A DNA stretch of 56,888 nucleotides from an uncultured Merdimonas sp. (lineage in GTDB: Bacteria; Bacillota; Clostridia; Lachnospirales; Lachnospiraceae): the NCBI GenBank assembly GCA_944378225.1, contig CALWGE010000008.1:1-56888 (forward strand). Direction: 5' to 3'. The notes beneath the pieces were generated by a model. The model was given only the letters and a program-made list of their open reading frames with translations. It did no database searches and was not told where the DNA came from. Position numbers and translations under genes: made by a program. Of this stretch, positions 15,563 to 24,065 are shown piece by piece. The number at the start of each line of letters is the position of its first letter. The stretch's first letter is position 1.

Positions 15563-16723
15563 ATGACGAAACGCATTTATTATGAAGACAGTCATCAAAA
15601 AGAATTTTCTGCATTTGTCACAGCCTGTGAAAATGAAAAAGATTACTGGCGCATCTGTCTCGATCAGACTGCTTTTTTTCCTGAAGGAGGAGGACAGAAC
15701 GGAGACTCCGGTTTTTTAAATCAGGCGGAAATTTTTGATACACAGGAAGACCAGGGCGTCATCTGGCATTATTCCAAATGTCCGCTGGATCCTGGCACAG
15801 AAGTAACAGGACGGATCGACTGGACAAAACGCTTCTCCCGAATGCAGCAGCATACAGGGGAACACATTGTCTCCGGCCTGATCCACGCACGCTTCGGCTA
15901 CGATAACGTGGGCTTTCATCTGGGAGATCAGGACGTTACGCTGGATTTTAACGGCCCTGTCAGCCGGGATGAGCTTTCACAAATTGAAGAGGCAGCAAAT
16001 GCTGTGGTTTTTTCCAATCTTCCGGTGCAGATTTCCCTCCCCTCCAGAGAAGAGCTGGTCTCTTTGAAGTACCGCAGTAAAATTGAAATCGAAGGGCAGG
16101 TACGCATTGTCACGATTCCAGGGGTCGATGTTTGCGCCTGCTGCGCTCCTCATGTCAAATATACTGGTGAAATCGGCCTGATCAGACTTACGAATGTGCA
16201 GAGTCACAGAGGCGGTGTGCGAATCAATCTTCTGGCCGGCGACCGGGCGCTTCGCGACAGCAGAGAAAAAGAAGCTGCTGTCCGCGCCGTCTCCGTACTT
16301 CTTTCTGCGAAGGAAAATAAAATTCCGCAAGCTGTGGAACGGCTGAAGCAGGAAGCCTTTGAACTGAAAGGCCGACTGATGCAGCTGAATCTTGCCTATA
16401 TCCAGGACAAAGCTGCAGCTGTTCCGGTTGGAACAGAAAATCCTGTCTTTTTTGAAACAGATCTGGACATGGACACCTGCCGGGAATTTGTAAATCTTCT
16501 GACTGACCGCTGTCACGGAACGGTCTGTGTCTTCTCCGGAAACGGTACCGATGACTGGCGTTATATTTTAGGCAGCCGGACCCGGGATACACGCCAGCTG
16601 TGCAGATATCTGAATCAGACTTTTCAGGGAAAAGGAGGCGGTAAGCCAGAAATGGTGCAGGGTTCCCTGAAAGGTAAAAAAACAGATATTTTAACAGCCA
16701 TATCTTCTTTCCGGCAAAATTAA
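15563..16723 (+). CDS. Alanyl-tRNA editing protein (AlaX-L type, with DHHA1 domain)
   Basis: Hydrolyses mischarged Ser- or Gly-tRNA(Ala) in trans. The 386 residues contain an AlaRS-like beta-barrel start (TAFFPEGGGQNGD), the editing-site metal motif HTGEH at 97-101, and its second half C193-x3-H197 (CACCAPH). A C-terminal DHHA1 domain ends in the GKGGGKPEMVQG motif. There is no synthetase catalytic domain, so it is a free-standing editing factor. The start has GGAGG close upstream. It is monocistronic and convergent with rubredoxin. Confidence 0.93.
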   Translation: MTKRIYYEDSHQKEFSAFVTACENEKDYWRICLDQTAFFPEGGGQNGDSGFLNQAEIFDTQEDQGVIWHYSKCPLDPGTEVTGRIDWTKRFSRMQQHTGEHIVSGLIHARFGYDNVGFHLGDQDVTLDFNGPVSRDELSQIEEAANAVVFSNLPVQISLPSREELVSLKYRSKIEIEGQVRIVTIPGVDVCACCAPHVKYTGEIGLIRLTNVQSHRGGVRINLLAGDRALRDSREKEAAVRAVSVLLSAKENKIPQAVERLKQEAFELKGRLMQLNLAYIQDKAAAVPVGTENPVFFETDLDMDTCREFVNLLTDRCHGTVCVFSGNGTDDWRYILGSRTRDTRQLCRYLNQTFQGKGGGKPEMVQGSLKGKKTDILTAISSFRQN

Positions 16724-16781
16724 AAAAACAGCCTTTATACAGAACCTTTCCGTTTTCCCGTTCTGTATAAGGGCTGTTTCC
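16724..16781. terminator. Bidirectional terminator
   Basis: A long stem (AACAGCC-TTATACAGAAC / GTTCTGTATAA-GGCTGTT) has A-rich and T-rich flanks. It lies between the convergent alanyl-tRNA editing and rubredoxin genes. Confidence 0.9.
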
Positions 16782-16814
16782 TGTTAAGTGTTACCTGACA
16801 CTCAAATGCTTTTC

Positions 16815-16976
16815 TTATTCCTCTACTTCAAAATCATCCTTGCCTACACCGCAGATAGGGCATGTCCAGTCATCCGGCAGATCCTCAAATGCAGTGCCGG
16901 GAGCGATTCCGTTATCCGGATCACCTACTTCCGGGTCATATACATAGCCGCAAGGTGTACAAACATATTTCTTCAT
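16815..16976 (-). CDS. Rubredoxin
   Basis: A 53-residue one-iron electron carrier. The two iron-binding knuckles are visible: [10 protein letters not shown] at 6-15 and [11 protein letters not shown] at 39-49, so all four cysteines are present. The acidic middle ([19 protein letters not shown]) is typical. AGGAGG lies 7 nt before the ATG. It probably feeds electrons to rubrerythrin, flavodiiron or superoxide reductase proteins encoded elsewhere. It is transcribed divergently from a Crp/Fnr regulator. Confidence 0.97.
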
Positions 16977-17027
16977 GATTTTTCCTCCTAATCTGTTATC
17001 AGAAATCTTTTTTAATATATCTAGTTT

Positions 17028-17049
17028 ATATCAAAAGTTTTCCTGATAT
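17028..17049. promoter_or_regulatory. Candidate Crp/Fnr-type operator
   Basis: A perfect inverted repeat, ATATCA-N10-TGATAT, lies in the space between the divergent rubredoxin and Crp/Fnr genes. A second small hairpin (GTTGC-TTTT-GCAAC) sits at about 17053-17066. The 22-bp dyad size fits Crp/Fnr sites. Binding is inferred. Confidence 0.4.
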
Positions 17050-17155
17050 TCTGTTGCTTTTGCAACATTTTTGTGCCATACTGAAGAAAAAATTACCTCC
17101 ATGTTACTTTGGAAACGGAGAAACGCCAAAAACCAGGAAAGGTAAGGTACTGCCC

Positions 17156-17800
17156 ATGAACTATTCAGAAAATCTTCTGTTTCAATGCGTCAGTGAAAAT
17201 GACTGCAGAAGAATGCTGGACTGTATGAAAGCCAGAAAACGTGATTTTTTTGCCGGTGAAGAAATTTATTCCTTTGATACTCCACGCAAAATCGTGGGGA
17301 TTCTTCTCAGCGGACAGGCTGCTGTGGTGCGTTATGAATATAACGGTACCCGAAGTATTCTGGAAAATCTTTCTCCCAAAGGAATCTTTGGAGAACATCT
17401 TTCCTTTGTTCCCAGCGACGATTCCTGTATTGCCGTAGTCTGTCAGACAGACTGCCAGGTTCTTTTTATCGATTACCAGCGTCTGACTGCCACCTGCCAG
17501 AACGCCTGCTCCTGCCATACTCAGCTGATCCGGAATCTTCTGCAGCTTCTCTCTGACAAAACCCGTTCTTTAAGCGAACGTGTAGAGGTTTTAAGTCAGA
17601 GAAGCATCCGTGAAAAGCTCATGTGCTATTTCATGCAGCTGGCTGCCGGAAAAAACAGCAGTACCTTTGAACTTCCCTTCACTATGATCGATTTTGCCGA
17701 CTTTCTGTCTGTAAACCGCAGTGCCATGATACGGGAACTTGGAAAAATGAAGCAGGAAGGGCTGATCCGGATTTCCCGGAGGACCATTACCCTTCTTTAG
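17156..17800 (+). CDS. Crp/Fnr-family transcriptional regulator, cysteine-rich
   Basis: A 214-residue regulator with an N-terminal cyclic-nucleotide-binding-like beta-barrel (about 20-120) and a C-terminal winged helix (FADFLSVNRSAMIRELGKMKQEGLI). It contains about ten cysteines, including the regular C11-x5-C17-x5-C23 and the cluster CQNACSC, which suggests metal or redox sensing. That pattern is not the classical Fnr CxxC set. The ATG at 17156 is chosen over 17054 because family similarity begins there; its ribosome site (AAGGTAAGG) is weak. It is divergent from rubredoxin and its stop overlaps the end of the AAA+ gene on the other strand. Confidence 0.85.
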   Translation: MNYSENLLFQCVSENDCRRMLDCMKARKRDFFAGEEIYSFDTPRKIVGILLSGQAAVVRYEYNGTRSILENLSPKGIFGEHLSFVPSDDSCIAVVCQTDCQVLFIDYQRLTATCQNACSCHTQLIRNLLQLLSDKTRSLSERVEVLSQRSIREKLMCYFMQLAAGKNSSTFELPFTMIDFADFLSVNRSAMIRELGKMKQEGLIRISRRTITLL

Positions 17801-19310
17801 ACAGCCTTTCTATTTCCTTTCTGATTTCCCGGTCGCTTTCTGTCAGAAGACTCTGGCTGTATCTGTGATAGCGCTCGCATTCACAGGAACAGAGAAATGC
17901 GGCCGCATCCTCCGATCTGTTAAGCCCTGTCAGAAACAGCACCATTTCCTGGCTGTTTCCGAAAGCTGTCTCCAGGAAATCAAAGGCATGCTCCAGCATT
18001 CTGCTGCCTTCTTCCTGAAATTTTTCATATTTTTCCCGTTCTGCGGAAAAAAGTTCCCGCAGAATATCGAAAGCAGCAGGTCCGTTTTCCGGATGCTGTT
18101 TCATTAATTCTGTCTCATAAATCCCCAGCACTTCTTCCAGATGCAGCAGTCTCCTCTCCTCTTCCCGGTTCAGAAGTTCTGCCCTTTTCTTTCCTTCACG
18201 CTCCTGCTGCACCTCTTTCTGAATATCTCCGATTACTCCGGGAATCTCTTCCTCTGACAATGTACTTTCCCTCAGTTTCGCTCCTGCTTTCTTCATTTTC
18301 CCATACAGGATCTCAGTAAACAGCTCCTGAACACGAATTCTGTGAAATTCCGCCATACAACCGGACAGCAGAAGACTGATCACACTCAGCCGCTCATCAA
18401 AGGAGGCGTGAGACAGTTTCTTAATCATACTCTCCCGTATTTCTCCTTTCAGAATGCGGTCGATCGCATAATCATTCTTGTATTTCCGGTACAGCTCCAG
18501 ATAGTTTGCAAATTCTCCTGCAATCCGGTCATGCTGGATGTACTGGCGCACAACCTCTTTATCCACAGGCTTGCCCAGTTTCTCATACACCTCCAGCAGC
18601 CTGGACAGATCTTCCCAGCCTCTGGGCGTGGCAAACATTTTTCCGTCCACGGTAGTCTCCATCTGATAGAAATTTCCGGGACGCACATCCAGATATGAGA
18701 TGACCGCCGGATGAATCTGTGTTTTAAGCGCATACTCCCGGAAGACCTCATAATCAGGTTCCACCTGAATCTTTTTCACACGATCCAATGTCACCACATC
18801 AAAATCTCGGACCGATTTATTATACTCCGGGGGATTCCCTGCAGCCACAATCACCCATCCTTCAGGAATAGGATGATTTCCAAAGGTTTTACATTGAAGA
18901 AACTGCAGCATGGCAGGCGCCAGTGTCTCGGAAACACAGTTAATCTCATCAATGAACAGAATTCCCTCCCTCAGCCCTGTCTTTTTCATTTTTTCATAAA
19001 TAGACGCGACAATTTCGCTCATGGTATATTCCGTCACAGCCTTCTTCTGTCCGTCATACTCCTGTTCAGAAATAAACGGAAGACCGATGGCGCTCTGACG
19101 TGTATGATGTGTAATTGTATACGCTACCAGACCGATTCCGCATTCCCTGGCAATCTGCTCCATAATCTGTGTCTTTCCGATACCCGGAGCCCCCAACAGC
19201 AGTACAGGTCTCTGCCGTACAGCCGGAATTTCATAATCCCCGTATTTATCCTTCAGAAGATATGCTTCCACTGCGTCTTTAATTTCCTGTTTTGCCCGTT
19301 TAATATTCAT
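17787..19310 (-). CDS. MoxR-type AAA+ ATPase
   Basis: A 507-residue ATPase with Walker A GAPGIGKT (40-47), Walker B FIDEIN (119-124), and a sensor-1 segment AAGNPPEYN typical of MoxR and dynein-like AAA+ proteins. The N-terminal 270 residues hold the ATPase core. The rest is helical and charged, with no recognised domain. MoxR proteins usually act with VWA proteins as chaperones in assembling or activating targets. It is the last gene of a three-gene operon, and its start overlaps the VWA gene by 11 nt after a strong GGAGGAG site. The family is clear; the target is unknown. Confidence 0.88.
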   Translation of the reverse strand: MNIKRAKQEIKDAVEAYLLKDKYGDYEIPAVRQRPVLLLGAPGIGKTQIMEQIARECGIGLVAYTITHHTRQSAIGLPFISEQEYDGQKKAVTEYTMSEIVASIYEKMKKTGLREGILFIDEINCVSETLAPAMLQFLQCKTFGNHPIPEGWVIVAAGNPPEYNKSVRDFDVVTLDRVKKIQVEPDYEVFREYALKTQIHPAVISYLDVRPGNFYQMETTVDGKMFATPRGWEDLSRLLEVYEKLGKPVDKEVVRQYIQHDRIAGEFANYLELYRKYKNDYAIDRILKGEIRESMIKKLSHASFDERLSVISLLLSGCMAEFHRIRVQELFTEILYGKMKKAGAKLRESTLSEEEIPGVIGDIQKEVQQEREGKKRAELLNREEERRLLHLEEVLGIYETELMKQHPENGPAAFDILRELFSAEREKYEKFQEEGSRMLEHAFDFLETAFGNSQEMVLFLTGLNRSEDAAAFLCSCECERYHRYSQSLLTESDREIRKEIERLSKEG

Positions 19311-20634
19311 TCTGACTCTCCTCCTCTGTCAAATCATGCTCCCCAAGAATCAGCTTTATGGCCCAGGGAGGCACATCCACATCCCGATACTGTTTCTGCA
19401 GAAACAGGAAGGCCGTCTCGAAAGGCGGCATGGCAACCGGAAAAATTCCATAACCATCTGTAAAATACAGAAGCCCCCGAAGACGCCCGTAAACCCTTTC
19501 TGCCATCTGCTTTTCCACATATGCAAAAGCCGGCCGGAAATCTGTTCCACCGCCGCCTTTTAAAACCACATGCTCCATATATTCTTTCAGTTCTTCGGCA
19601 TTCTCAATGAGTACATCTGACTGTACCCGTTCGTCGCACTGAAGAATATGTATCCTGGCATTCCGAAAAAAACTTTCCGTCTCAGACAGCACCTGACAGG
19701 TCTCTTCCAGGAAACGTCTTACAAGCTCCCCCTTACAGGACATGGAAGTATCAATTACTATCACAAGCTCTTCTATTCGCCGGATTTCTCTCGTCTCCTG
19801 CGGCTCAATCAGCGGCATGTTTCCATACAGACTCATTCCATAGGTATAAAAAATGTAATCAAAACTGTCGGGATCCACCTGTATTTCTTCCCGCAGCGCT
19901 GAAAATTTCCTCAGGAATTCACGGTAATCACAGCGGGAACGGCTGCTTATTTTCAGCTGCTCCAGCATATTGCCTTCCCCTTCTGAGGCCTCTCTGGAAA
20001 ATAATGAAATCTCTGTCTGCATGCGCTCCCGGATATCATCCCACTGCTGGCGGCTGGGATTCTGCATGCCAGGTTTTTTCTCCTGTTCCCAGAGACTGTG
20101 GTCATCCGGATGAAATTCCCGATTCCATCGCAACAGTTCTGCCTCAGAAAGTTTATATGTCTGAAGCTCCCGGTAAATCCCCTCTGCCGTCAGAACCGGC
20201 AGCTTTCTCGAAAGTCTCGCAATACAGCTTTTACGAAAAGCGCCTGACGGCACATGTGCACAGCTCAGATAGAGACTGTCCAGGAGAGCCTCCGCAGCCA
20301 CATCACAGGCCAGATCCCACAGCTGCTTTTTTCTGCCTTTCCGGTCGAAAGGATGGGCAAACAGACAGTGAAACAGAATGTGAAGATACAGACGGACCAC
20401 ACAGGCCCGGTTTTTCTGATAAAGTTCCATAAGACTGTCCGGTTCAAAGAAAAGTACCGCCCCATCCGTTCCCGCCGGCTCTGTCTGCCCGGGTATACAT
20501 TCCAGACTTCCCAGTGCCAGATCCAGATATTTAAGATGCAGATAAAGTTCATTTCTTACGCTTCCCAGAATCCTTCTCCCCAGTTTCTCCTTTTCCAGAA
20601 TTTTTTTCTGTTCTTCCAGTATCGGACTTTTCAT
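19300..20634 (-). CDS. VWA-domain protein with DUF2201-like N-terminus
   Basis: A 444-residue cytoplasmic protein. The C-terminal von Willebrand A domain has a complete MIDAS: DTSMS at 295-299, Thr364 in GGGTDF, and Asp393 in YFTDGYG. The N-terminal region resembles the DUF2201 putative metallopeptidase: HILFH (85-89), a third His at 94, and the WDLACDVAAE helix with Asp111. The HExxH glutamate is Ile, so zinc protease activity is doubtful. It sits between an LRR protein gene and a MoxR ATPase gene; MoxR-VWA pairs are a known functional unit. There is no signal peptide. Confidence 0.85.
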   Translation of the reverse strand: MKSPILEEQKKILEKEKLGRRILGSVRNELYLHLKYLDLALGSLECIPGQTEPAGTDGAVLFFEPDSLMELYQKNRACVVRLYLHILFHCLFAHPFDRKGRKKQLWDLACDVAAEALLDSLYLSCAHVPSGAFRKSCIARLSRKLPVLTAEGIYRELQTYKLSEAELLRWNREFHPDDHSLWEQEKKPGMQNPSRQQWDDIRERMQTEISLFSREASEGEGNMLEQLKISSRSRCDYREFLRKFSALREEIQVDPDSFDYIFYTYGMSLYGNMPLIEPQETREIRRIEELVIVIDTSMSCKGELVRRFLEETCQVLSETESFFRNARIHILQCDERVQSDVLIENAEELKEYMEHVVLKGGGGTDFRPAFAYVEKQMAERVYGRLRGLLYFTDGYGIFPVAMPPFETAFLFLQKQYRDVDVPPWAIKLILGEHDLTEEESQNEY

Positions 20635-20649
20635 GATCCGTTTCCTTTC

Positions 20650-21648
20650 CTACAATTCAAATCGCTGCTCTCTTTTCTGTTTCAGCTCCTGTCCCTGGCT
20701 TTGTGTGCCGCGCAAAGCCTCCAGCAGAAAGGCAACTCCCTCAGGAAAGCTGCCGGAAGCAGCCTGCGGAACAATCTGTTCCAGAAGCTTTCTCCCCTCT
20801 TCCATGGGTATTTTCTCAAACACAATTTCTTTCAGGTACTCCAAAAGTTCTATATTTTTATCAGTCACCGCTTTTTTCAGCGCTGCTCCCATGTGCTCTT
20901 TTACCCATTCCCGGTACATTTCCCGATTCTCCGGCAGAAGGCCTGCCGGGTAACGGAGCCTGCCAAGCGCCATCTCAAAAACTGTTTCAAAATCTTCCTC
21001 TGCCTTTGCCCGGTAAAAGCAGGCGTCGTAAGCACGAAAATCAAACTTTCGATCATAGAAGCAGTTTCTGTAATTCATACCACTTCCATGCGTATGAATC
21101 TCCAGAATTCTTGCCGGAGTATTTTCCACGCTCTCTTCAAAAAATTCCGGAAAAACCAGCTTTGCACAGCGGCTTCCTTCCAGAAATACTGTCAGCTTTT
21201 CGGGTATCTCCATCAGAATTTCACGAAGGCAGGACATCTCCCCCGCCTTAAGATACAGTTTCAGTTCCTTCACAGCATGACAGCCCGTGAAGAGTCCCGC
21301 TCCCAAATCAGTAAGCCCGCCCCAGAATCGAATACTGGCCAGCCTGCCGCAGTTATAAAAAGCATAGGCTCCGATTTTTTCCAGCGACGCTGGAAGGCTG
21401 ACTGCTGTAAGCGCCGCTCCTGTCAGAGCCGGGGGATTTCCCGTGTCGCCGTCTCCCCATATCTTCAGTCTGTGACTTTGAAGTTCACGTTCCATTCTTT
21501 TTTCATCCATGTGATCAGAAAATGCATAAGGCGCCAGCTCTGTTACCGGACAGTTTTCTATTGTATCCGGCAGTTCTGCCTCCGGACTGTACTCATAACA
21601 GCGCCAGATAATGGCTTTGCCGTTTTTTATTTCATAAGCGATTTTCAT
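20650..21648 (-). CDS. Cytoplasmic leucine-rich-repeat (BspA-like) protein
   Basis: A 332-residue protein with no signal peptide. BspA-type LRR_5 units occupy about residues 20-150 (ITELAPYAF-like and LPASLEKIGAYAFYNCGRLASIRF). A middle part of about 150-220 has no recognised motif. The C-terminal third is helical with an ankyrin-like turn (ALKKAVTDKNIELLEYLKE). A GGAGG ribosome site precedes the ATG. It is the first gene of the operon with VWA and MoxR genes, 15 nt from the VWA start. It may be a substrate-binding adaptor for the MoxR-VWA pair, which is inference. Confidence 0.78.
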   Translation of the reverse strand: MKIAYEIKNGKAIIWRCYEYSPEAELPDTIENCPVTELAPYAFSDHMDEKRMERELQSHRLKIWGDGDTGNPPALTGAALTAVSLPASLEKIGAYAFYNCGRLASIRFWGGLTDLGAGLFTGCHAVKELKLYLKAGEMSCLREILMEIPEKLTVFLEGSRCAKLVFPEFFEESVENTPARILEIHTHGSGMNYRNCFYDRKFDFRAYDACFYRAKAEEDFETVFEMALGRLRYPAGLLPENREMYREWVKEHMGAALKKAVTDKNIELLEYLKEIVFEKIPMEEGRKLLEQIVPQAASGSFPEGVAFLLEALRGTQSQGQELKQKREQRFEL

Positions 21649-21751
21649 GCGTTTCCTCCGAATTACTACCTGTCATTTCCGGTAAAATCATTGTATACCA
21701 TTGCGCTCCATCCTGCAACGAAGCAGACTGACATTTTGCATATTTTTCGCT

Positions 21752-21767
21752 CAACAATATCTAGTAA
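21752..21767 (+). promoter_or_regulatory. NrdR box 1
   Basis: CAACAATATCTAGTAA matches the NrdR consensus ACACTATATATAGTGT at the central positions (CwATATxTAGT). It lies just upstream of the -35 of nrdD, 32 bp centre-to-centre from box 2. Confidence 0.65.
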
Positions 21768-21774
21768 TTTCTCA

Positions 21775-21803
21775 TTGACATTACTACTATATATTGTTAA
21801 AAT
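21775..21803 (+). promoter_or_regulatory. nrdD promoter
   Basis: -35 TTGACA (21775-21780), 17-bp spacer, -10 TAAAAT (21798-21803). This is near-consensus for the housekeeping sigma factor. NrdR box 2 fills the spacer and touches the -10. Confidence 0.75.
21784..21799 (+). promoter_or_regulatory. NrdR box 2
   Basis: CTACTATATATTGTTA matches the NrdR consensus core (ACTATATATwGT). It lies between -35 and -10, so bound NrdR would block polymerase. The spacing of 32 bp to box 1 is the usual three helical turns. Confidence 0.7.
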
Positions 21804-21887
21804 ACTCTTTGCCGGTTAAGGCTATACCATATGATGTAAAACTGCTTTTGAGAAACAAACACCTGAACATAGAGGGAGAATATTCTT

Positions 21888-24065
21888 ATGAAAATCATTA
21901 AGCGCAGCGGATCAGAGGTATCCTTTGACCCCCAGAAAATCGTAATTGCCGTCACCAAGGCAAATGAAAGCGTTGTTCCCAGTGCCCGTATGTCTGCCGT
22001 GCAGATTAAGCGGATTGCAGAGGATGTGGAAAGTGCTGCCCAGAACATGAACCGTTCTTTAAGCGTGGAAGAAATTCAGGATATGGTAGAAGACCAGATC
22101 ATGAATCAGCGGGCTTTCGATGTGGCCAGACGATACATCACTTACCGCTACCGCCGTGCTCTGGTACGCAAATCCAATACCACGGATGAACAGATTCTGA
22201 GCCTGATTGAATGCAACAATGAAGAAGTTAAACAGGAAAATTCCAATAAGAATCCCACTGTCAACAGCGTGCAGCGCGACTACATGGCCGGAGAAGTCAG
22301 CAAAGATATTACAAAACGTCTTCTTCTCCCCCCGGATATTGTCAATGCGCATGAGCAGGGTCTGATTCATTTCCATGATGCAGATTATTTTGCCCAGCAT
22401 ATGCATAACTGTGATCTGGTCAATCTGGAGGATATGCTTCAGAATGGCACTGTCATCAGCGGAACCCTGATTGAGAAGCCCCACAGTTTCTCTACTGCCT
22501 GCAACATTGCCACTCAGATCATCGCCCAGGTAGCGTCCTGTCAGTATGGAGGACAGAGCATCAGCCTGACTCACCTGGCTCCTTTCGTAAATATCAGCCG
22601 TCAGAAAATCCGGCGCCAGGTAGCGGAGGAACTTCATTCCATCCGGGAAGCTGTTACAGAAGACGAAATCACAGCTATCACTGAAAAGCGCCTTCGTGAA
22701 GAGGTAAAAAACGGCGTTCAGATGATCCAGTATCAGGTAGTAACTCTGATGACCACGAACGGACAGGCCCCCTTTGTGACGGTCTTTATGTACCTGAATG
22801 AAGCAAAGGACCCGCAGGAAAAGCAGGATCTGGCTCTGATTATCGAAGAGACTCTGCGCCAGCGTTATCAGGGTGTCAAGAATGAAAAAGGTGTCTGGAT
22901 CACACCGGCATTCCCGAAGCTTATTTACGTTCTGGAAGAAGACAATATCCATGAAGACAGCCCGTATTATTATCTTACAAAACTGGCTGCCAAATGTACC
23001 GCCAAACGGATGGTACCGGACTATATCTCTGAAAAAATCATGCTTCAGAATAAGATCGATAAAAATGGGGAAGGTCACTGCTACACCTGTATGGGCTGCC
23101 GCAGTTTCCTGACTCCGTATGTGGATGAAAACGGAAAGCCGAAATATTACGGCCGGTTTAATCAGGGAGTAGTAACCGTCAATCTGGTAGACATCGGGCT
23201 CTCTGCAGGAGGCAGTCTGGAAAAATTCTGGGAAATTTTTGACGAGCGAATGGAGCTCTGCCACCGGGCACTGCAGTGCCGTCACGAACGTCTGACCGGA
23301 ACTCTGTCCGATGCTGCACCGATTCTCTGGCAGTACGGAGCACTCCTGCGTCTGAAAAAAGGTGAAAAAATCGATAAATATCTGCACGGAGGCTACTCTA
23401 CCCTGTCTCTTGGATACGCAGGCTTATGGGAGTGCGTGTTCAGCCTGAACGGCAAAAAGCTCACAGAACCGGAAGGTGAGGCTCTTGGGCTGGAGATTAT
23501 GAAAAAGCTGAATGAATATACAGCAAAATGGAAAGCCGAAGAAAACATTGATTACTCCCTGTACGGCACTCCGCTTGAAAGTACCACCTACAAGTTTTCC
23601 AAATGTCTCCAGAAGCGGTTTGGTATTATTAAAGGCGTTACTGACCGTAACTACATTACCAACAGCTATCATGTTCATGTAACTGAAAACATTGACGCTT
23701 TCGATAAACTGGCCCTGGAGGCAAAATTCCAGACTCTCTCTCCGGGCGGAGCAATTTCTTATGTGGAAGTGCCGAATATGCAGAATAATCTGGATGCTGT
23801 GCTGTCTGTTATGAAATTTATCTACGATCACATCATGTATGCGGAGCTGAACACCAAGAGTGATTACTGTCAGGTCTGCGGATATGACGGGGAAATTGAG
23901 ATCAGAGAAGACGAGCACGGGAAACTTATCTGGCAGTGCCCGAACTGCGGCAATACAGACCAGAATAAGATGAATGTGGCCAGAAGAACCTGCGGCTACA
24001 TCGGAACCCAGTTCTGGAATCAGGGCCGTACCCAGGAAATACGGGAACGCGTACTGCATCTGTAA
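21888..24065 (+). CDS. nrdD: Anaerobic ribonucleoside-triphosphate reductase
   Basis: Makes deoxyribonucleotides from NTPs without oxygen, using a glycyl radical. The 725 residues start with an ATP-cone allosteric domain (about 1-90, KIIKRSGSEVSFDPQKI), then the ten-stranded barrel. Near the C-terminus are a four-cysteine zinc site (CQVCGYDG and CPNCG) and the radical motif RTCGYIG, with Gly703 as the radical site. A GGGAG site precedes the ATG. It is followed by nrdG after a hairpin. The two NrdR-like boxes over its promoter imply repression when nucleotides are abundant. Confidence 0.97.
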   Translation: MKIIKRSGSEVSFDPQKIVIAVTKANESVVPSARMSAVQIKRIAEDVESAAQNMNRSLSVEEIQDMVEDQIMNQRAFDVARRYITYRYRRALVRKSNTTDEQILSLIECNNEEVKQENSNKNPTVNSVQRDYMAGEVSKDITKRLLLPPDIVNAHEQGLIHFHDADYFAQHMHNCDLVNLEDMLQNGTVISGTLIEKPHSFSTACNIATQIIAQVASCQYGGQSISLTHLAPFVNISRQKIRRQVAEELHSIREAVTEDEITAITEKRLREEVKNGVQMIQYQVVTLMTTNGQAPFVTVFMYLNEAKDPQEKQDLALIIEETLRQRYQGVKNEKGVWITPAFPKLIYVLEEDNIHEDSPYYYLTKLAAKCTAKRMVPDYISEKIMLQNKIDKNGEGHCYTCMGCRSFLTPYVDENGKPKYYGRFNQGVVTVNLVDIGLSAGGSLEKFWEIFDERMELCHRALQCRHERLTGTLSDAAPILWQYGALLRLKKGEKIDKYLHGGYSTLSLGYAGLWECVFSLNGKKLTEPEGEALGLEIMKKLNEYTAKWKAEENIDYSLYGTPLESTTYKFSKCLQKRFGIIKGVTDRNYITNSYHVHVTENIDAFDKLALEAKFQTLSPGGAISYVEVPNMQNNLDAVLSVMKFIYDHIMYAELNTKSDYCQVCGYDGEIEIREDEHGKLIWQCPNCGNTDQNKMNVARRTCGYIGTQFWNQGRTQEIRERVLHL

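Follow-up and report, generated by a model that had tools for sequence, protein, structure and literature searches.

The window analysed here is a stretch of 56,888 nucleotides from an uncultured Merdimonas sp. of the Lachnospiraceae (contig CALWGE010000008.1), and the system in question is a cluster of three minus-strand genes within it. They encode, in this order, a leucine-rich repeat (LRR) protein, called T3 here as the third component, a von Willebrand factor A (VWA) protein and a MoxR-type AAA+ ATPase (Table 1). The LRR and VWA genes are separated by 15 nt and the VWA and MoxR genes overlap by 11 nt. An earlier note on this DNA had described one tight operon with these spacings, whose coordinates are confirmed, and a VWA protein with a complete metal ion-dependent adhesion site (MIDAS), of which the elements DTSMS, GGTD and FTDG are all present in the protein.

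Table 1. Features of the three-gene cluster, with positions in the window and residues of each protein.
Feature	Positions	Strand	Basis
T3, third component, BspA-type LRR protein, 332 residues	20650-21648	-	open reading frame, Pfam, family-wide linkage
T3 LRR head, residues 1-158, N-terminal cap and few repeats	21175-21648	-	model comparison
T3 conserved strands, residues 159-189, FPE..E..ENTPAR..HGxG region	21082-21174	-	alignment
T3 helical C-terminal domain, residues 190-327	20668-21081	-	common to all forms of the family
T3 C-terminal tail, QRFEL-stop, proposed docking motif	20650-20667	-	ending enrichment
VWA protein, DUF2201_N and VWA-like DUF2201, 444 residues	19300-20634	-	open reading frame, Pfam, model
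VWA HILFHCLFAH, residues 85-94, HExxH-like without the glutamate	20353-20382	-	alignment
VWA conserved segment, residues 250-287, directly before the MIDAS strand	19774-19887	-	alignment, NorD-finger position
VWA MIDAS DTSMS, residues 295-299	19738-19752	-	alignment
MoxR-type AAA+ ATPase, 507 residues	17787-19310	-	open reading frame, Pfam, conserved residues
MoxR Walker A GAPGIGKT, residues 40-47	19170-19193	-	alignment
MoxR Walker B ILFIDE, residues 117-122	18945-18962	-	alignment

The LRR-VWA-MoxR trio is a real, conserved three-part system. It was traced in a family sample of 150 genomes, one per genus, in which each of the three proteins was searched and about 13 kb was fetched round each VWA match where the contig allowed. 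The VWA family is present in 78 of these genomes, and the C-terminal domain of T3 is found in 74 of the 78 against 2 of the other 72, where the matches are weak (one with E 3.7e-6, in a frame of 1444 residues and covering part of the model, the other with E 0.007). Over the 150 genera the counts of pair against C-terminal domain (74/4/2/70) give a Fisher value of 6e-35, uncorrected for kinship, with G039, G092 and G098, which have a classical VWA match only, scored as lacking the pair; otherwise the VWA count would be 81. Three of the four genomes with the pair alone (G021, G080 and G100) hold T3 by its full-length profile (L121, L122 and L105). The earlier note had treated the three genes as a unit, which the relatives bear out: an LRR gene absent or unlinked in most carriers of the pair is not what is found.

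T3 is present in the fetched stretches of 78 of 88 family VWA loci, lying upstream in 50, downstream of MoxR in 17, as the C-terminal domain only in 9 and in other orders in 2. Three of the remaining loci stand at contig ends, one has T3 on another contig and six are without T3 in the stretch. The T3 gene can be upstream, downstream, inverted, split off, unlinked or at times fused to the VWA gene. It also lies beside VWA in 75 of 80 named loci, which come from Lachnospiraceae and from records named Faecalibacterium, Oscillibacter, Agathobaculum and the like; these are the best 80 of 587, a choice that favours close relatives of the LRR-bearing kind. The trio is not a product of chance, since it recurs in about half of the 150 genera and T3 accompanies VWA in nearly all of the named loci. 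Generic LRR matches are many, as many as 77 candidates at first look in a single genome, and abundant LRR_5 genes might happen to sit beside such a pair; accidental neighbourhood of this kind is refuted by co-occurrence and adjacency over many genera and by a common C-terminal domain and tail, and its probability is practically nil.

Beyond the family, any VWA match is found in 34 of 291 genomes of a class-level sample, and in 16 of these genomes the match is strong (E of at most 7.5e-74). T3 is present in 11 of the 14 stretches fetched there, in three cases 1-6 kb from VWA with intervening genes, and is missing from the stretches L349, L350 and L353, the last of which stands at a contig end. 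A phylum-level sample has VWA matches in 15 of 249 genomes, with one strong member outside the class, whose T3 is within a protein of 1177 residues; three weaker loci (L366-L368) have no T3 and their pairs look classical. Three genomes of the family sample (G022, G086 and G129) carry an extra unlinked T3 (L371-L373) beside the linked one, as if one core served several adaptors. In one class-level genome the order is T3-VWA-T3-MoxR (L340:5437-8848), with two T3 copies flanking VWA. In two genera an unlinked T3 (L370:4235-5239 and L372:4671-5639) lies downstream of genes which by eye seem to be for fatty-acid synthesis, and each is followed by a gene for 251-260 residues.

T3 has an LRR-like part, residues 1-158, and the remainder is a separate part. 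LRR_5 (PF13306, BspA-type) is the sole Pfam family above cut-off, with 8.9e-9 over residues 79-131 only, and structure comparison gives the LRR part a TpLRR-like fold; absence of a family among the structural matches is not informative. T3 shares LRR_5 repeats with BspA-type surface proteins, and inspection by eye, with no predictor run, of the window protein and of a consensus from 65 relatives showed neither a signal peptide nor a wall anchor. The conserved strand region continues to YRxCF at residues 193-197. Among 65 LRR-bearing relatives, residues 161-200 have a mean pairwise identity of 0.48, the highest of eight segments, and Gly188 and Gly190 are invariant. The LRR part ranges in the family from none up to proteins of about 1177 residues with several LRR blocks. 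Two relatives with long LRR arrays are L342:2619-4952 and L365:8026-11559; in the former the C-terminal domain is matched within the first half of the chain, ahead of most LRRs, an order that suggests domain shuffling.

T3 proteins usually share a short ending. The pattern [FY]x[LF]-COOH closes 130 of 161 T3 relatives, against 1 of 190 VWA proteins, 1 of 184 MoxR proteins and 28 of 2315 other open reading frames, and it is found in 54 of 75 in the family set taken alone. The 161 tails are those of the family set, the 80 named loci and the class-level loci, with some organisms counted twice (e.g. L058/L167) and three T3 matches without the C-terminal domain excluded. The residue before the last is mostly Glu, Asp or Ser. 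The model blocks that cover residues 321-332 have pLDDT values of 68 and 54. A [KR]F[DE][LF]-stop codon pattern occurs at four places in the own genome, the window's included, against 19 for the reversed control pattern, and the other three places yield no further open reading frame with such an end. The first profile of the C-terminal domain had 81 rows, one of which was the MoxR end of a deletion remnant (L134, described below); A4, the alignment of the genome search, is without that row.

The VWA protein matches the Pfam families DUF2201, VWA-like, with 1.3e-13 and DUF2201_N, described as putative metallopeptidase, with 5.4e-8, and none else above cut-off. The five MIDAS ligands are invariant in 47 of 47 and 19 of 19 aligned relatives. 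A plain text MIDAS pattern matches 75 of 88 family rows; the 13 misses include L130, L134 and L135, which seem partial, and rows that differ just in the letters before the threonine. The window protein has H-I-L-F-H at the HExxH site and so lacks the catalytic glutamate of an active HExxH metallopeptidase, which the DUF2201_N annotation would imply. Only 3 of the 179 relatives with a recognised motif keep this glutamate, and in six more loci no motif was found. His85, His89, His94 and Glu115 are invariant in 47 rows while the HExxH glutamate is mostly lost, so the N-terminal domain may possibly hold a metal site without peptidase activity. Directly before the MIDAS, residues 250-287 are among the best conserved stretches of the protein, with Tyr263, Gly266, Tyr270, Pro274, Glu277 and Glu280 invariant.

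The VWA model matches known VWA domains, including NorD bound to NorQ (Foldseek, 9qh6_G, rank 29, E 1.7e-4), and PDB sequences searched with the VWA profile gave no match at E 0.1. The 80 best viral loci hold only distant relatives, which reach 22-39% identity in their best segment. The family phrog_1314 matches the window protein at 1.7e-29 across the DUF2201 VWA region; it is labelled HNH endonuclease in PHROGs, a label which may be wrong.

The MoxR protein matches AAA_5 (PF07728, dynein-related) above cut-off, with 1.6e-7, and AAA_3 and bpMoxR below their cut-offs. Walker A, Walker B, Asn159, Arg177 and Arg230 are conserved in 82 family rows; the last three we take, from the general motifs of AAA+ proteins, to be the sensor-1 residue and the arginines. 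Ala131, Tyr277, Tyr281 and Phe443 are at least 90% conserved in the 82 family rows outside the T3-less clade introduced below.

MoxR subfamilies and their VWA partners have been catalogued (PMC3893208; this paper and those that follow are cited from excerpts). In NorQ-NorD, a MoxR pair of the CGN subfamily, a finger of NorD, residues 403-448, enters the NorQ pore (PMC13036017), a single strand ties the finger to the MIDAS residues (PMC13036017, PMC9976466), and NorQ is bound by the C-terminus and by the finger of NorD (PMC13036017, PMC9976466). The trio resembles this system in its MoxR AAA+ protein, in its VWA protein with a full MIDAS and in a conserved pre-MIDAS segment at about the place of the NorD finger. 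NorQ-NorD differs in having two components, another N-terminal domain and no LRR protein, and the genes of its client cNOR are in the same operon (PMC9976466). CbbQ-CbbO also joins MoxR to a MIDAS VWA protein, and differs in that the client is rubisco, that adaptor and VWA are in one protein and that there is no third component; the MIDAS of CbbO and acidic residues of the client matter, and recognition involves both of these together with a C-terminal motif of the client (PMC5437159). RavA-ViaA is likewise a MoxR-VWA operon which a further protein, LdcI, can join (PMC6987120); LdcI is an enzyme and not an LRR adaptor, and RavA belongs to another MoxR subfamily (PMC3893208). Classical DUF2201 pairs of bacteria and phages match the same VWA profile and have the MIDAS and many ATPase residues in common with the trio, but their MoxR protein is of about 360-395 residues and encoded first, and the HExxH glutamate is present in 4 of 5.

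The reading favoured here, with a probability of about 0.56, is of a dedicated MoxR-VWA remodelling machine with three parts, all encoded in this operon, in which T3 is an adaptor that docks by its C-terminal end and picks the client by its LRR head. The sequences show three genes with intact motifs that co-occur almost obligately, a shared C-terminal domain and tail, and an LRR part that is lost or extended in some subclades; we infer from them that the proteins form a complex, where T3 docks, how the client is selected and how the machine acts, which may be as follows. The MoxR AAA+ ring would drive the VWA protein, probably by a VWA finger in the ring pore as in NorQ-NorD, a role that residues 250-287 may have by their position and conservation. 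By analogy with NorQD and CbbQO (PMC13036017, PMC9976466, PMC5437159) it would turn or pull this protein, whose MIDAS would bind an acidic ligand. T3 would be a cytoplasmic adaptor whose helical C-terminal domain and exposed tail, QRFEL, dock onto this core. The socket for the tail could be the VWA MIDAS, where the free carboxylate or an acidic residue would be the sixth metal ligand; the tail has a free carboxylate, and mostly Glu, Asp or Ser before its last residue, which is why this site is proposed. It could also be the post-sensor-1 loops of MoxR, which are proposed since the last residues of NorD bind there. Client specificity would come from the LRR head, and the machine would pull or twist the selected client to assemble, load or repair it. 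Fusion of the C-terminal domain to the N-terminus of VWA in one frame, found in five loci of which one is a remnant, supports physical contact between T3 and the VWA protein.

Several observations weigh against this reading. The strict tail ending is absent in 31 of 161 T3 proteins (21 of 75 in the family set). Among the 65 LRR-bearing relatives the LRR core has an identity of 0.38 and the helical C-terminal domain 0.33 and 0.22; the LRR core is no less conserved than the C-terminal domain, and the idea of a constant docking end with a variable head therefore rests on presence and absence in subclades and not on rates. Residues 250-287 of the VWA protein are modelled with low confidence (pLDDT about 55-70), so that the finger is read from position. 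The pair of G068 is without any detected T3 in its genome, and G052 has only a weak one (1.3e-7), about 6.6 kb from one pair and on the other strand. The window's own genome has a second pair of the same VWA family, in a sister clade, which is without T3. No client gene is found nearby, and no recurring gene family outside the core keeps a fixed place in more than 7 of 189 loci.

The family also contains forms that have lost parts of T3. The C-terminal domain stands without LRRs in 9 of 88 loci, in four as a gene for 102-146 residues and in five in one frame with VWA. Two of the five fused loci call for caution: the contig breaks off within L118 (G090), where the absence of LRRs is therefore not established, and L134 is a deletion remnant. 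The frame of the latter (L134:5632-7197, G121) joins the T3 C-terminal domain, VWA up to model position 326 and the MoxR end, with what lies between missing. The VWA tree was made without a locus of G136 that is spread over contigs and gave two rows. In this tree three T3-less loci form a clade outside the rest, and the loci with the C-terminal domain only form a supported clade of eight plus one. The LRR is not the constant part of the system, and the interpretation in the earlier note is partly supported. It had proposed that the LRR protein replaces the usual client-binding part, which is not obviously so, as the VWA protein retains its own N-terminal domain, and that it gives specificity, which may hold. 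Its view that the third protein belongs to the pair stands in that T3 tracks this pair, and does not extend to other VWA-MoxR pairs, which have no LRR partner in 5 of 5 classical DUF2201 loci and in the three loci of the sister clade.

The second pair of the own genome (contig C4, 81777-84478, L049:5930-8709) comes after a gene which by eye is like asparaginyl-tRNA synthetase. It is followed by a gene for a His-rich metal-sensing repressor of the CsoR/RcnR type (PF02583, 1.9e-28), and the same order of pair and repressor is found in L128, from another genus, which makes two of the three T3-less loci. In L101:5592-12062 an LRR-less T3-VWA-MoxR operon is directly followed by genes for a DnaK-like Hsp70 and for a protein with a DnaJ domain.

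These reduced forms bear on another explanation, in which the LRR protein is itself the client: the pair would recognise its tail and assemble or activate it, and the LRR protein would then act alone. Clients of MoxR pairs can bear an important C-terminal motif, as rubisco does with its H/KR motif in the CbbQO system (PMC5437159), T3 nearly always accompanies the pair, three genomes that hold a linked T3 have extra unlinked copies, and the LRR core equals the C-terminal domain in conservation. But where just a small gene for the C-terminal domain is seen, or this domain in the VWA frame, T3 resembles a component of the machine more than a client. This explanation is rather unlikely.

T3 could also be a regulator of the ATPase ring, with its tail placed on MoxR as is the C-terminus of NorD and with no role in the choice of client. 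NorD that lacks its last two residues no longer co-purifies with NorQ (PMC13036017). The residues Ala131, Tyr277, Tyr281 and Phe443 of MoxR are changed in all three rows of the T3-less sister clade, and no VWA position is conserved with T3 and changed in all three; with three rows, these four positions are a weak hint, from alignment, for a socket on MoxR, and they lend equally weak support to a regulator. Such a role leaves the LRR head, its variable length and its loss in some subclades unexplained, and it is considered improbable.

The surroundings of the trio were compared by an all-against-all test of genes, up to five before and six after VWA, in 189 loci. The highest recurrence at a fixed place is seven loci, for a mixed response-regulator cluster, and the next is six, for near relatives; a fixed neighbour was therefore dropped as client. 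The recurring neighbours, named by eye, belong to the local context, e.g. response regulators, transporters and pyrimidine genes. A link with sporulation was also tried and shows no clear association (SpoIVA in 58 of 78 genomes with the pair and 44 of 72 of the others, p 0.11).

The trio might also serve in defence and belong with the MoxR-vWA ternary conflict systems described by Kaur et al. 2020, in which case its LRR protein would sense an invader. Such systems have two conserved parts and a system-specific third component, and the trio shares this grammar of MoxR, vWA and a third protein (PMC7159879, PMC8195603); those with a beta-propeller are also without conventional effectors (PMC7159879). 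Their described third parts are VMAP, iSTAND, FtsH, beta-propeller or TERNS3 proteins (PMC7159879, PMC8195603), unlike T3 as compared by Pfam and PADLOC and not by the profiles of Kaur et al. 2020. Most carry effectors or effector-associated domains (EADs), whereas none is seen on the window VWA protein, which has only DUF2201_N and DUF2201 above cut-off. In addition, no neighbour family exceeds the seven loci given above (in a comparison made without effector or EAD profiles), PADLOC gives the window trio nothing but weak generic ATPase matches and leaves T3 unmatched, and bpMoxR is below cut-off. The hosts are Clostridia, and most such systems are tied to a multicellular habit (PMC7159879). 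A role in defence has a low probability.

A possible client is indicated by the reduced forms. Nickel carbon monoxide dehydrogenase (Ni-CODH) is found in 31 of 150 genomes overall, including all 12 with LRR-less or T3-less subclades, and the acetyl-CoA synthase AcsB is found in the same 12 of 12 against 6 of 138 others (Fisher 1e-13, uncorrected for kinship). The window's own genome is one of the 12, through its second pair on contig C4. The LRR-bearing subclades have no link with AcsB (8 of 73 against 10 of 77) or with Ni-CODH, and this pattern suggests that the client follows the third component. The AcsB link is post hoc: two traits had been guessed, AcsB was added, and the subclades were split after the CODH list. 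Host kinship accounts for part of it, and a kinship test, in which the tree of LRR-bearing VWA proteins stood in for that of the hosts, leaves only 4-5 independent contrasts with a median p of 0.125, none of them opposite. G052 and G068, which have the pair without an adjacent T3 and lie within the LRR-bearing part of the tree, are without AcsB, so that the broader count is 12 of 14. No VWA, MoxR or T3 gene was found near AcsB in 20 fetched stretches.

The trio might then be a modular platform, in which LRR adaptors would set one client and LRR-less or adaptor-less versions would mature nickel CODH/acetyl-CoA synthase in acetogenic gut bacteria. This is argued from the AcsB distribution, from the absence of a link for LRR-bearing forms and from the CsoR/RcnR-type repressor in two of three adaptor-less loci. 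The idea is rather doubtful, the more so because the remnant L134 is among the 12 and G052 and G068 are without AcsB. If it were true, the LRR-less form would mature the key nickel enzyme of acetogens and be a missing chaperone of a central pathway of carbon fixation.

The MoxR-VWA remodelling machine is a known kind of system, and the proposed LRR adaptor is new to the literature searched. An LRR third component of a MoxR-vWA pair is not described in the excerpts of PMC7159879 or PMC8195603, and in that of the former LRR occurs as the start of a word just in a reference title. No paper on the LRR-VWA-MoxR trio was among the matches listed when open-licence literature was searched for such a trio, for DUF2201 or for a connection of MoxR with acetyl-CoA synthase. 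The earlier note knew of no characterised MoxR subgroup of this make-up, and none was found in the literature searched. MoxR-VWA pairs are widespread and the way in which they find their client is known for few, so a system present in 78 of 150 sampled genera of Lachnospiraceae, in which the choice of client is perhaps in a separate, exchangeable protein with a conserved tail that can be deleted or transplanted, would make this question directly testable.

A plasmid search with the window LRR protein gave no match, and an Rfam scan of 16500-22500 gave no RNA family reaching the gathering scores. The stop region of the MoxR gene (17787-17800) overlaps by 14 nt the end of a convergent gene for a Crp/Fnr-type regulator. 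The upstream neighbour of the operon is a divergent class III ribonucleotide reductase gene, before which a sigma-70-like promoter match (11/12) lies at 21775-21803 of the plus strand.

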